Origin: a virus
IMG/VR virus record: IMGVR_UViG_3300043410_001917
Coordinates: 1 to 64,000 of that record
Reading direction: 5' to 3' (one strand)
DNA: 64,000 nucleotides
Part shown: positions 16,287 through 21,192 of the stretch, in pieces
Position numbering within the stretch: the stretch's first letter is position 1
Layout of the letters: every line of letters begins with the position of its first letter
Notes under the pieces: generated by a model
Told to the model about the DNA's origin: nothing
Databases searched by the model: none
What the model saw: the letters and a program-made list of their open reading frames with translations, nothing else
Program-made: the position numbers and the translations under genes

Positions 16287-16308
16287 CCCCGCCTAGTGCG
16301 GGGTTTTT
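16287..16308 (+). terminator. rho-independent terminator after gp32
   Basis: CCCCGC (16287-16292), loop CTAGT, GCGGGG (16298-16303), then five Ts at 16304-16308. It works on the plus strand; the minus-strand equivalent has no T-run. The convergent minus-strand gene ends right at the T-run. Confidence 0.92.
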
Positions 16309-17750
16309 CATATCATCCGTGTAGAATCAATAATCAAACCCATGAATGTTGGTTCATCATTTCTAACCGATATCTCAATAGGTCTTAAACCACTCTTAGG
16401 TTGAGTTTTGGTCACGTTGTTGACGGTTCTATTGATTGAGCTTGCATCAGGTGTTTGATTTGCAGCAATATTAGCAAAATTAACTTGATTTGTTAAATTC
16501 GAAACGGGTGCTGATGTTGGTGGTGATTGAACTGGTTGTGCTGCTGGTGGGCTTGGTGTTGGTTTTGGTTTACTTCTTTCTTGTTTTGGACCAGCAATTT
16601 GATTGCCTTCAGCATCAAATATTTGTCCTTCTGGTGCTTCTGGAATGGCATTTTCTTTCTTTTTCACAGGAACAGCAGTAGGTTCTGGTTCACTTGAAGG
16701 TCCAATCAAATCATCTATTTCTTTTTTTGGTAATTTTTTGGTGTCTCTCAAATACTCACGCACACCAACATTATAATATTTTGTCAAAAATGGCGCATCT
16801 TCTAGTAAACCTTTTAATTTCTCTTGTTTTTTCTTTTCTTTTTCCAAATCTTCTTTAGATTTTGCACTATTCAACGCCGCAGCTGCTAAAGCTGTGTCAC
16901 TACCAACATCTCCTTCAATTAATTGTTGACGTTGTTCATCCGACATATTAGCAAGCACATTAGTAGCACCATAAGTTAATGCGGCACCACCAGCAAGAAC
17001 ACCGGTTACAGTAGCTGCACCAGAAGCAGCAAATGCTGTTGCTGCTTGTAGTCCCCAACGACCAGCAGAAGCAAGAGATTCAGCAACTTTTACACCCACT
17101 TTTTTAGCAATCTCAAGTAGTGTGTTTTTCATCAAAGAAACCAAGTCAGCTAAACCTTTTAATTTTTCCCACAGAGAATCCCACATTGATGTTTCTTCTT
17201 TAACTGCTGTTGCTGTGCCACCAGAATTCATGTGTTTCATCAATTTTTGTAAAGTATCAATCAGTTCTTTATGGCGTCTTTCCTTTTCTGAAGAAATTTC
17301 TTCTTCTTGATTTTTTAGTTGTTCTCTCAATCTAACATCATCTTCACGTGAAGATTTCAGAAATGAATATATCTTGGCTAATTGTTCATTAATTCCTTCA
17401 TCACCACCTTCGCCAGAAAGTTTATTAATTTTTTCAGCGGTGCCTCTGCCACCTATAACACTTTTTGTTCGTCCTGTAAAATAGTCAATATCTTTTTGAC
17501 TTCTACCCATAAGTTTACCAGCAAGAGCTGGAGCAAATCTGGAACCAAATGTCATAAATTTAATGATGTTTAATGGATCAAATTTTTCTTTGAATCCTTT
17601 AATTCTTGCTTCGCTTCTGAGAGAAATGGTTTTACCGATAGCACCAAATAAACCTTTATTTGGATCCGCCAATTGGTCAAGGACCATATCAGAAAACTTA
17701 GATTTTCTGATTCTTCTGGCTTGTTGGTAATTTAGTTTATTGTCTGCCAT
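16308..17750 (-). CDS. putative tail tape-measure or baseplate hub protein
   Basis: A 480-residue protein read on the minus strand. The N-terminus is basic (LNYQQARRIRKSKFSDMVL) and followed by GLFGAIGKTISLRSEARIKGF and MTFGSRFAPALAGKLMGR. A long helical stretch rich in Glu/Lys (EEEISSEKERRHKELIDTL) is followed by an Ala/Gly-rich hydrophobic segment (about residues 235-262), then a Pro-rich C-terminus. This mix is typical of tape-measure/hub proteins. It is the last gene of the block with gp26, gp51 and gp54, which fits a T4 gp29/gp28 role. The exact T4 counterpart is uncertain. Confidence 0.55.
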   Translation of the reverse strand: MADNKLNYQQARRIRKSKFSDMVLDQLADPNKGLFGAIGKTISLRSEARIKGFKEKFDPLNIIKFMTFGSRFAPALAGKLMGRSQKDIDYFTGRTKSVIGGRGTAEKINKLSGEGGDEGINEQLAKIYSFLKSSREDDVRLREQLKNQEEEISSEKERRHKELIDTLQKLMKHMNSGGTATAVKEETSMWDSLWEKLKGLADLVSLMKNTLLEIAKKVGVKVAESLASAGRWGLQAATAFAASGAATVTGVLAGGAALTYGATNVLANMSDEQRQQLIEGDVGSDTALAAAALNSAKSKEDLEKEKKKQEKLKGLLEDAPFLTKYYNVGVREYLRDTKKLPKKEIDDLIGPSSEPEPTAVPVKKKENAIPEAPEGQIFDAEGNQIAGPKQERSKPKPTPSPPAAQPVQSPPTSAPVSNLTNQVNFANIAANQTPDASSINRTVNNVTKTQPKSGLRPIEISVRNDEPTFMGLIIDSTRMI

Positions 17751-17753
17751 TTT

Positions 17754-19598
17754 TTACTTTCTTTGATGTGCTGGTCTATCATCAACTGGTTTAGGATTTG
17801 ATGGTGATGTTGTTTCATTTACATTATTAACATTAACATTTATTCCTAAATTCTTTTCTGCTTTTAAACCTTCATGTAATTGTGTATTTAAATAAGTTGC
17901 TCTGGCGGTATCATTACTAAAAGCACCACGAACTTGGTCGACTTTAGCAATATCTACTTTTCCTTTACCCGCTGTTAATAAAATTAAAGCCTTGTTTAAG
18001 TCATCTGGATTATCATAAGAATTTAAAATATTAAGACCTTTTGCATAACCAGCTTTTAATTTTTCGACCGACAGTTTTGGATCCAAACTGTTAGCTGCTA
18101 ATAAAGCCAAATATGCTAAAGTAGCTTGTGAAGTTGTTTTTACATCTTTATTGATTAATTCCGGATTGTTAACTAAATCTAAACCCATAAATTTACCAAG
18201 AGCTTCGTAGGTCTCTTTGTGTGTTATACCAATCAAAGACCTACCTTTGTATTTTTCTCCACCTTTATAACCAACAGCTTCAAAAAATTTACCTGGATCC
18301 GCATCTTCTATTACAGATTTCCATTGTTCAGAGGACCATTTTTTACCAAAAGTAAAATTCATATACGCAGTACCGGCACCTGGTCCAGTTTGTGGTGCTG
18401 ATGAATCTTTACCTTTTATTTTTTCATATTTGTCAGGCGGAATTTTAGATTTTCCGGACTCCATATTACGCCAAGTATTTTTGTAAGCTACTGGACCTTC
18501 TTCACTTAATGTTTGTCCCGCTTGAGTTTCTTTTGCAGCAACAACCATAATACTAGCTGCAACAGCTGAAGAAGCTCCCATTCCAGTAAGTTCTTTTTTG
18601 ATGTTTGCCGCTCTTTGAACCGCATCTAATCCTTTTAATCCTTCACCTTCTTTACCAACTTTTGTTGCTGATTTGGGTGGTTGTGGTGCAGGTTTGTTTG
18701 GCTGTTTTGTTGGTTGTGCAGGTTGTTCTGGTTTTTCTGGAACCTTTTCAGCTTTTTTTTCTTTTTCCGCAGCTTCACGTTTTAAACGTTCTTGTTCTTC
18801 TTTTTTTAATCTTTCTGCGGTTTCTTGTTTTTTCTTTTCCTCAGCAGCCTTCTTTTCAGCTTCAGCTTTAGCCTTTTTATCAGCTTCTTCTTTAGCTTTC
18901 TTTTCAGCTTCTTTTTTCGAAACATCCTCTTTCTTGGGTGCTTCCTGTTTTTTAGGAACTTCTTCTTTCTTAGGAGCTTCTTCCTTTTTTGGAGTCTCTT
19001 GTTTTTTAGGAGCTTCTTCTTTCTTAGGTGCTTCTTCCTTTTTTGGAGTCTCTTGTTTTTTAGGAGCTTCTTCTTTCTTAGGTGCTTCCTGTTTTTTAGG
19101 AGCTTCTTCTTTCTTAGGTGCTTCCTGTTTTTTAGGAGCTTCTTCTTTCTTAGGTGCTTCCTGTTTTTTAGGAACTTCTTCTTTTTTTGGAGCCCCTTGT
19201 TTTTTTGCTTCTTTTTCTTCGGCCTTCTTCTCACGGCGAACAACTCTCTTTGGTTTTGGTTGTCTACGTAAAGTTAAAGCCCTAATAATTTCTTTGTGTC
19301 TTTTTTGTTCTTGGGAATCGTTTTCTTCTTTTTTATTGGATTGTTGTTCTCTTTCCAATTTTAAATCGTCACGATTTTGAACCAACATCTTGTAAATTTC
19401 ACCAAGATATTCGGTGTTGGACATTGGTCCGGCAGTATCCGTTGTGTGTTTGGTTGAACCAAATTTTTTGTGTAGTATATCACCAACTTTATTGACTGTT
19501 CTTTTCAATAACCCAGCGGATTCTTTAGATTTTTCAGACACGACAGGACTAGACGAAGAATCGCCTTTGTCCTTTTTGTTATTGCCAAATAAATTCAT
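17754..19598 (-). CDS. repeat-rich virion protein with GH19-like lysozyme domain
   Basis: A 614-residue minus-strand protein. Residues 1-130 are polar and partly helical. Residues of about 130-225 are repeats of KKEEAPKKQEAP type, and then there is an Ala/Lys/Glu-rich helix to about 320. The C-terminal part (from LKGLDAVQRAANIK) has the shape of a GH19-type glycosidase: a catalytic-type Glu in VVAAKETQAG around residue 355 and YKGRSLIGITHKETYEALG then LDLVNNPELI, which correspond to the conserved GRG.IQLTG and LVNNP regions. This would cut peptidoglycan during injection, replacing the lysozyme domain of T4 gp5. Its start overlaps the end of the gp51 frame as ATGA. Confidence 0.7.
   Translation of the reverse strand: MNLFGNNKKDKGDSSSSPVVSEKSKESAGLLKRTVNKVGDILHKKFGSTKHTTDTAGPMSNTEYLGEIYKMLVQNRDDLKLEREQQSNKKEENDSQEQKRHKEIIRALTLRRQPKPKRVVRREKKAEEKEAKKQGAPKKEEVPKKQEAPKKEEAPKKQEAPKKEEAPKKQEAPKKEEAPKKQETPKKEEAPKKEEAPKKQETPKKEEAPKKEEVPKKQEAPKKEDVSKKEAEKKAKEEADKKAKAEAEKKAAEEKKKQETAERLKKEEQERLKREAAEKEKKAEKVPEKPEQPAQPTKQPNKPAPQPPKSATKVGKEGEGLKGLDAVQRAANIKKELTGMGASSAVAASIMVVAAKETQAGQTLSEEGPVAYKNTWRNMESGKSKIPPDKYEKIKGKDSSAPQTGPGAGTAYMNFTFGKKWSSEQWKSVIEDADPGKFFEAVGYKGGEKYKGRSLIGITHKETYEALGKFMGLDLVNNPELINKDVKTTSQATLAYLALLAANSLDPKLSVEKLKAGYAKGLNILNSYDNPDDLNKALILLTAGKGKVDIAKVDQVRGAFSNDTARATYLNTQLHEGLKAEKNLGINVNVNNVNETTSPSNPKPVDDRPAHQRK
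18920..19205 (-). repeat. tandem 12-codon repeat encoding KKEEAPKKQEAP
   Basis: Near-identical 36-base units run through this stretch, each with the plus-strand form of AGGAGCTTCTTCTTTCTTAG and variants. They encode a Lys/Glu/Pro-rich linker between the N-terminal helices and the lysozyme domain. Copy number is probably unstable. They also keep several other frames open, producing long false reading frames. Confidence 0.85.
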
Positions 19599-19789
19599 TT
19601 ATTTTTTCTTTGTCGTTCTTTTAGTTTTTGGTTTTCTTCTTCCAAATATTGAATCAACATAGCAACGTAGATATCTCGTTCCCAAGGTATCATATTCTCA
19701 AGTTCAGTAAGACTATACTTATGGTGTTGCATCAATGAAAAGTTAGTCTTGTAATAATTTTTTAAGTCATCATAACCAAGTATTAGCCG
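19595..19789 (-). CDS. gp51: gp51-like frame, probably made by -1 frameshifting from gp26
   Basis: The minus-strand frame reading RLILGYDDLKNYYKTNFSL then MQHHKYSLTELENMIPWERD and YVAMLIQYLEEENQ has 64 residues and ends at 19595, where TGA overlaps the ATG of the next gene. Its sequence fits the small gp51-type tail proteins of T4-like marine phages. There is no ATG, GTG or TTG between the last in-frame stop and this coding stretch, so it has no start. It abuts the slippery T-TTT-TTC at the end of gp26, and a -1 shift there would make a 304-residue fusion. An internal TTG or ATG start within the 64 residues is possible but would remove much of the domain. Confidence 0.7.
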   Translation of the reverse strand, partial: RLILGYDDLKNYYKTNFSLMQHHKYSLTELENMIPWERDIYVAMLIQYLEEENQKLKERQRKNK

Positions 19790-20508
19790 AAAAAACTTTC
19801 GAGGCCCTCCACATCCAAGTGGTGTTCAAAACCACACTTGGAACAAGTCATATCAATTTTCTTTTTCAGTTTTGGAATACTATTGAAAAAATTCTCAAGT
19901 TTCTCAAACTGTTCCTGATTCAACTGTTCAATAAACTCAATCATTTCTTCCGTTGTAACTTCATTTGCATAATGGAACTGTTCACCATCATAAACATATT
20001 CAATACAATTAGCTAACATATTAAAGGTAACTTCAGTAATATCTTCCAAATCAACAGAATCTTTGACCAATCTGAATGGTGGATATTTCATCTTAACAGA
20101 AATTGTATCAGTTAATTGAATTTCAGGATCAACATATTCTTCCTGAACGGGAAAAATTTCAGTCAAGTTAACTTTTGCTTCCATAATATTTCCACAAACT
20201 TTTTCCTCAACTTCATTGTTACAACGATATTTTGATTCAGAAATTTCACCAACAGATTTTGCTCTCAGTTGTAGGAAATAATATTCAATGTCTATAATTG
20301 GTAAATCATCAATATCAACATCTTTAGACAATGTGCATACATTTAATATTTCTCTTACATTATGTTGAATGGTTTTGGCATCGGAAGATTCCATGGCCAT
20401 CATTAATGCTTTTTGTTCTCTGACCAAGTATGGTCTGTATTTTATGTCCTTTTTAGAAACAGGTAATTGCAATTCATATGTTGGCACTTCAAGTTTTGGT
20501 AAAGCCAT
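19783..20508 (-). CDS. gp26: gp26-like baseplate hub/tail assembly protein
   Basis: A 241-residue minus-strand protein. MALPKLEVPTYELQLP, then YRPYLVREQKALMMAMESSD and DIEYYFLQLRAKSVGE match gp26 of T4-like phages (PF12322). Four cysteines (CNNEVEEKVCGN and CSKCGFEHH) could form a zinc ribbon. T4 gp26 is a hub assembly protein, possibly a chaperone. AAGGAG precedes the start. The end AGT TTT TTC GGC TAA contains a slippery heptamer. Confidence 0.85.
   Translation of the reverse strand: MALPKLEVPTYELQLPVSKKDIKYRPYLVREQKALMMAMESSDAKTIQHNVREILNVCTLSKDVDIDDLPIIDIEYYFLQLRAKSVGEISESKYRCNNEVEEKVCGNIMEAKVNLTEIFPVQEEYVDPEIQLTDTISVKMKYPPFRLVKDSVDLEDITEVTFNMLANCIEYVYDGEQFHYANEVTTEEMIEFIEQLNQEQFEKLENFFNSIPKLKKKIDMTCSKCGFEHHLDVEGLESFFG
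19789..19795 (-). promoter_or_regulatory. slippery heptamer T-TTT-TTC for -1 frameshift
   Basis: Read on the minus strand, TTTTTTC is in the X-XXY-YYZ phase relative to the gp26 codons (AGT TTT TTC). The -1 shift continues with CGG CTA ATA into the gp51 frame and bypasses the gp26 stop six bases later. This is the classic arrangement of tail assembly chaperone G/GT genes. Confidence 0.65.
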
Positions 20509-20523
20509 AATAACTCCTTATCA

Positions 20524-21192
20524 TCATTCATTAAAATTTATTGGTGAATTCACAGCATCTGCCATAGAATTAAAACCACTAGACAAACCACTTCCAAGAG
20601 AACCTCCCAATCCACCAAGAGAAGTCGCTACAGATTCTAAACCTGCATCCAAAAGATCCATACCCAAACCTTGTAGAGATAGATTTTTCCAGTAGGTGTA
20701 TGCAAATGTAACCGATAGTTTGTGATAACCATCACCGTTCCAATCTAAATCTAGTTGATTCATTGAAATTGGATATGCATCAATCAAACTCACAGAATAA
20801 GTTTTTTCATTTGCAGTATCATATTGGTTAATTGTAATTGTCGTTGCGTAATTTTCTTTGTAACGCATATTGTTGTTGTAGGTTGGATTGATAAAATTCA
20901 ACCAACCGTCAAAAAGAAATTTTTGAGACATATCTTCATCAACAATAAAAGTCAAATCAATATCGTTGTATGTTGTCAGATATGGAAACTTTTCTACTGG
21001 ACCATATGTTTTTTGATCCATTGTGGAAAGACTTTTACCCGGCAAGTTTGCAACTTCACAACGATATTTCAAAGTTCTTGCTGTTTTCACATAAGGTATC
21101 AATGTTAATGGTATTGGTATATCAACATCAAACCTACTGGTTCTTGCTAAGTCACCACGAAAACTTGATTTAAATTCGCTAATCGTAGACAT
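20524..21192 (-). CDS. gp54: gp54-like baseplate-to-tail-tube initiator
   Basis: A 222-residue minus-strand protein with tail-tube-type beta fold: RFDVDIPIPL, YRCEVANLPGKSL, YLTTYNDIDLTFIVDED, FDGWLNFINPTYNNN and KLSVTFAYTYWK. The arrangement (loop, DW/GW, strand, then DVTFAY-like ending) parallels the second half of T4 gp54, which starts tube growth on the baseplate. The tail end is Gly/Ser-rich (GLGGSLGSGLSSGF). An AAGGA site precedes the ATG. Confidence 0.75.
   Translation of the reverse strand: MSTISEFKSSFRGDLARTSRFDVDIPIPLTLIPYVKTARTLKYRCEVANLPGKSLSTMDQKTYGPVEKFPYLTTYNDIDLTFIVDEDMSQKFLFDGWLNFINPTYNNNMRYKENYATTITINQYDTANEKTYSVSLIDAYPISMNQLDLDWNGDGYHKLSVTFAYTYWKNLSLQGLGMDLLDAGLESVATSLGGLGGSLGSGLSSGFNSMADAVNSPINFNE

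Follow-up and report, generated by a model that had tools for sequence, protein, structure and literature searches.

A putative −1 ribosomal frameshift joins gp26 and gp51 into the long form of a T4-like tail assembly chaperone

Results

In the uncultured T4-like phage of the IMG/VR virus record IMGVR_UViG_3300043410_001917, the gene for gp26 and the adjoining reading frame with a gp51 domain make up, in all likelihood, a single gene from which two products derive: gp26, the short chaperone, and gp26-gp51, a minor long form of 304 amino acids (aa) that would result from −1 frameshifting. The analysis covered 64,000 nucleotides (nt) of this 67,330-bp record, hereafter referred to as the window; its relevant features are compiled in Table 1. 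In the profile search, gp26 scored 195.7 bits against PF12322, for which the curated cut-off is 24.5. The 3′ end of the gene reads GAA AGT TTT TTC GGC TAA. A first-pass annotation of the sequence had placed a phase-correct slippery heptamer six bases before the gp26 stop, and this holds: the A-site codon of T_TTT_TTC begins six bases ahead of the stop codon. Likewise, the −1 fusion does comprise the 304 residues predicted there, ending with the stop codon at 19597-19595. The statement that the gp51 frame begins after the end of gp26 was slightly inaccurate; the −1 frame is already open from 19825, ∼40 nt inside gp26, and the two frames therefore overlap. The gp51 frame had also been described as devoid of a start codon. 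This applies to the junction, where none is present in the window, but not further in, where the frame contains TTG (19735) and ATG (19732), 48-51 nt beyond the gp26 stop and both without a Shine-Dalgarno (SD) sequence ahead of them.

The −1 frame product matches phrog_634 ("baseplate hub assembly catalyst"; 4.1e-30, residues 2-63), and the gp51 piece has a further match to phrog_150 (positions 235-276) that follows immediately on the gp26 part. The junction peptide predicted for the fusion is ESFFRLILGYDDLK. Among the open reading frames (ORFs) of at least 120 aa in the window, T_TTT_TTN occurs in-frame only 27 times in 20,634 codons, and any in-frame X_XXY_YYZ lies within the last 24 nt of only 6 of 54. 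Ribosomes very probably slip by −1 at the end of gp26 to make gp26-gp51.

For comparison, 323 gp26 loci were assembled from IMG/VR contigs (four scans), nine phage records, and the window, and were grouped at 85% identity over 250 nt into 132 clusters. Beyond the gp26 stop, the −1 frame stays open for 90 nt or more in 319 of the 323 loci, the +1 frame in 2, and frame 0 in 3. The four loci without an open −1 frame are either cut by contig ends (three) or carry a broken gp26 (one). A canonical X_XXY_YYZ is present in 130 of the 132 clusters (TTTTTTC in 105, TTTTTTT in 17, TTTTTTA in 7, and TTTTTTG in 1), and the slippery site lies at the same distance from the stop in 114. The annotation had proposed checking the site across relatives, and that check was borne out; we regard this conservation as decisive for the site being more than a product of chance. 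The two clusters lacking a canonical site are those of VAP7 and CBA120, both Ackermannviridae, in which T-rich Phe codons are kept that would permit a single-tRNA slip. In the Ackermannviridae gp26 genes at L011:2938-3744 and L331:3001-3804, the −1 extension is kept and ATT TTC stands in place of T_TTT_TTC, which suggests a single-tRNA slip or another route. Four additional records also keep the −1 extension; of these, Aeromonas phage AS-yj (Straboviridae, Emmerichvirinae) and Vibrio phage D479 carry TTTTTTC, and the T runs of VPALA and Klebsiella phage FKP10 are weaker. In public records, the gp51 extension is annotated as a stand-alone coding sequence, with differing starts (L003:5765-5899, L004:4717-4899, L008:3714-3875).

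The codon preceding TTT ends in T in all 130 clusters with a canonical site, compared with 78.5 expected from synonymous usage, irrespective of whether it encodes Ser, Asn, Asp, Ala, or Gly. The A-site codon is TTC in 105 clusters and TTT in 17, opposite to the background usage for Phe, which is 69% TTT. The codon choice at the slippery site shows selection at the nucleotide level. Upstream of the site, an SD-like match of at least 5 nt was found in 74 of 130 loci, as opposed to a mean of 39 and a maximum of 52 in 200 synonymous resamplings; these matches are mostly GGAGG, GAGG, or AAGGA, 8-10 nt from the site. The −1 frame itself evolves as a protein under purifying selection; its substitutions relative to the window are distributed 591:142:1326 over codon positions 1, 2, and 3.

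SD-like sequences are known to stimulate −1 frameshifting at a spacing of 9-14 nt (review PMC5009743), and the GGAGGG of the window is a probable stimulator of this kind. Downstream of the site, the 130 loci as a group fold better than upstream controls (mean z −1.33 versus −0.22). In a marine clade (L319:2212-2256 and other loci of register 42), an 11-bp stem begins 5 nt past the slippery site; 92% of its cells are paired, and three pairs have changed on both sides, that is, in a compensatory manner. The window does not have this stem, and a downstream RNA structure as stimulator is unsupported there (z near 0). Thus, downstream stimulators look lineage-specific.

A sequence search with the gp26 profile against solved structures yielded nothing relevant, which is why folds were compared instead. 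The gp26 model (predicted local distance difference test score 90) was built from an alignment of the window and viral-contig proteins only, and covers gp26 alone. Approximately residues 1-88 aligned best with YqbN (3klu; Z 7.4), which we take to be a member of a tail assembly chaperone family, followed by the HK97 tail assembly chaperone (2ob9; Z 6.9) and the PICI ORF19 protein (5ir0; Z 5.8); the following row had a Z of 2.7. Solved tail-chaperone folds give the best alignments, and the N-terminal domain of the gp26 model appears to be chaperone-like in fold.

T4 carries genes 26 and 51 on opposite strands and can therefore not frameshift between them; gene 26 ends GAG TTC TTT GAG TTA CTA TAA and contains no slippery site. 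Frameshifting between the two genes was consequently rejected for T4. The profile of the fusion aligns with T4 gp26 over positions 10-238 and, in one stretch spanning both domains, with T4 gp51 over positions 23-281. Each of the two T4 proteins matches phrog_150, and a single pairwise comparison between them gave an E of 2e-6. It therefore seems that T4 has separate genes for the short and the long form, gp51 being the putative genome-encoded long paralogue. The proposal that gp26 and gp51 are the T4 version of the chaperone pair can accordingly be kept in a modified form, in which T4 would have the same pair, from two genes and not by frameshifting. As to a second, fused long-form gene of the T4 type, PF12322 matched only once in the 67,330-bp record, which may itself be incomplete, and a diverged gp51 might escape the profile.

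The genes flanking gp26 are included in Table 1. The annotation had placed the fusion next to a tape-measure gene. Position and relatives agree with this, as tape-measure profile matches were obtained for the genes at the place of the 614-aa ORF in Cr30, phiM19, and Vibrio D484, but neither of the two downstream ORFs of the window (614 and 480 aa) had a significant tape-measure match. Together, these ORFs (16308-19598, minus strand) form two tape-measure candidates side by side, and the 614-aa ORF carries long KKEEAPKKQEAP-type repeats. The gp51 frame ends in a stop that shares bases with the ATG at the start of the following ORF (ATGA, 19595-19598, minus strand), as expected for translational coupling.

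Table 1. Features of the gp26-gp51 locus in the window.
Feature	Position	Strand	Basis and remarks
gp26, short chaperone form	19783..20508	−	241 aa; stop codon 19785-19783; PF12322 1e-57, phrog_150 2e-61
Slippery heptamer T_TTT_TTC, in gp26 phase	19789..19795	−	Sequence; canonical site kept in 130/132 clusters
GGAGGG, SD-like, probable −1 stimulator	19805..19810	−	9 nt upstream of heptamer; putative function
−1 open frame with gp51 domain	19595..19825	−	phrog_634 4e-30; read only from slippery site onward
gp26-gp51 frameshift product, long form	19595..20508	−	304 aa; predicted from −1 slip
Tail tube-like gene, directly upstream of gp26	20524..21192	−	phrog_45 1.4e-42, PF06841 4.6e-7
614-aa coil-rich ORF, directly downstream, with GH19-like segment; tape-measure or tail-lysin candidate	17754..19598	−	PF00182 1.2e-6; position
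480-aa coil-rich ORF, second tape-measure candidate	16308..17750	−	47-aa motif in common with 614-aa ORF; profile search without significant match

Discussion

The −1 fusion and its analogy to the lambda G/GT chaperones, as first proposed from the window, are supported by the conservation of site and frame, the codon bias, the purifying selection on the −1 frame, and the fold of gp26. In the mechanism envisaged here, ribosomes translating gp26 would reach T_TTT_TTC, where a share of them would slip by −1, the two Phe tRNAs re-pairing one base back on the heptamer. The internal GGAGGG probably helps the slip, after which translation would run on into gp51, presumably at a useful rate. By analogy with lambda G/GT (PMC5009743), the gp26 part would bind the tape measure and the gp51 part of the long form would recruit the tail-tube protein; short and long forms would both leave before the virion is finished.

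Several observations weigh against frameshifting or weaken the case for it. No stable structure is present downstream of the site in the window, and ATG, GTG, or TTG occurs in the −1 frame no more than 12 nt past the stop in 59 of the 132 clusters. The clusters are related, so that neither the codon tests nor the substitution counts are fully independent, and the 130 loci were picked for having the site, although just 2 of 132 clusters lacked one. The similarity of the gp26 fold to known chaperones is moderate (Z below 8), and Foldseek returned no significant E-value for the gp26 model.

If gp51 were instead a separate protein, made by termination-reinitiation or by internal initiation in the −1 frame, the GGAGGG would serve a coupled restart and not frameshifting. 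In some relatives (Cr30, Moby, Vibrio D484), an ATG does overlap or closely follow the gp26 stop, many records annotate gp51 as its own gene, and SD sequences near gene ends may serve coupling (review PMC5009743). However, the window has no start at the junction and no SD ahead of the internal TTG and ATG, and in 73 of 132 clusters the −1 frame is free of ATG, GTG, and TTG as far as 12 nt beyond the stop, in 40 as far as +42. Moreover, reinitiation leaves the invariant T_TTT_TT and the T-ending codon before it unexplained, and we consider a separate gp51 very unlikely.

An identical fused product would arise if the polymerase, and not the ribosome, slipped on the T run and one extra U were inserted in some mRNAs, for which the longer runs of some relatives (AGT TTT TTT TAA) might speak. 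Bacterial transcriptional slippage usually needs longer runs, and that of the window has only six T. Because 105 of 130 clusters have a C at the third A-site position, despite TTT being the more common Phe codon, the run is interrupted and kept short; furthermore, such a process gives no role to the upstream SD-like element with its −1 spacing, and we deem it extremely improbable. Finally, the site could have arisen by chance as a T-rich stretch of an AT-rich genome, with gp51 as a decayed or unrelated ORF. The count of TTTTTTC in the window, 35 versus 39 expected, shows no enrichment and would be compatible with this, but the site is kept in 130 of 132 clusters despite varied neighboring residues, the −1 frame is never closed in any relative that could be evaluated, and it shows codon-position bias. 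We give this possibility practically no credence; conservation among relatives rules out a chance site.

Several known systems come close to the locus. With regard to lambda gpG/gpGT and other frameshifted chaperones (Xu, Hendrix and Duda, 2004; review PMC5009743), the N-terminal fold of gp26 aligns with that of the HK97 chaperone, whereas no sequence homology is detectable, gp26 has a greater length (241 aa) and an additional C-terminal part, and the site is T_TTT_TTC. At the Vandenendeviridae/Andersonviridae locus exemplified by phage Adele (PMC12846349), a −1 frameshift is likewise conserved, at the T-rich GTTTTT close to the end of TAC-N and with the −1 frame open in all genomes, but the phage families differ from that of the window. 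The E. coli dnaX cassette (PMC5009743) combines tandem slippery codons with an SD-like stimulator 9-14 nt upstream, as does the window; the codons are for Phe here and not Lys, and a downstream stem is absent from the window yet present in the marine clade. Close counterparts are also the T4-like tail assembly chaperones, which belong to the same families (phrog_150, phrog_634) and comprise short and long forms with a common N-terminal part. In T4, the long form is a separate, divergent gene, whereas in the window a −1 frame change would produce it from a single locus.

Tail assembly chaperones of T4-like phages were identified by Vladimirov, Gautam and Davidson (2022; Virology 566:9-15), as cited in PMC10885494 and PMC12846349. 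Citing that study, the PRFect paper states that a short gene exists beside a fused long one in some T4-like phages (PMC10885494), and the Adele paper that T4-like phages are known to have polyT slippery sites in TAC-N genes (PMC12846349). Going by these citations, the frameshift-chaperone idea is not new for T4-like phages but already published in outline. The upstream SD-like element under synonymous selection and the clade-specific downstream stem are details for which no description was found in the literature searched.

The locus provides a candidate upstream stimulator amenable to testing, together with a naturally occurring contrast between frameshifted and duplicated versions of one pair. 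The records considered here indicate that gp51 is annotated as a stand-alone gene where it is a frameshift extension of gp26 (e.g., S-SM1, phiM19, S-T4). They also indicate that the tail chaperone frameshift is kept in most of the T4-like groups sampled, whereas a 2016 review described it as conserved among long-tailed phages "except T4" (PMC5009743). It is an even bet, in our estimation, that frameshifting in T4-like phages is driven mainly by the conserved internal SD-like stimulator, that lineage-specific stems were added in at least one marine clade, and that the T4 branch replaced this arrangement by gene duplication. If so, the route from frameshifting to a pair of separate genes could be traced.
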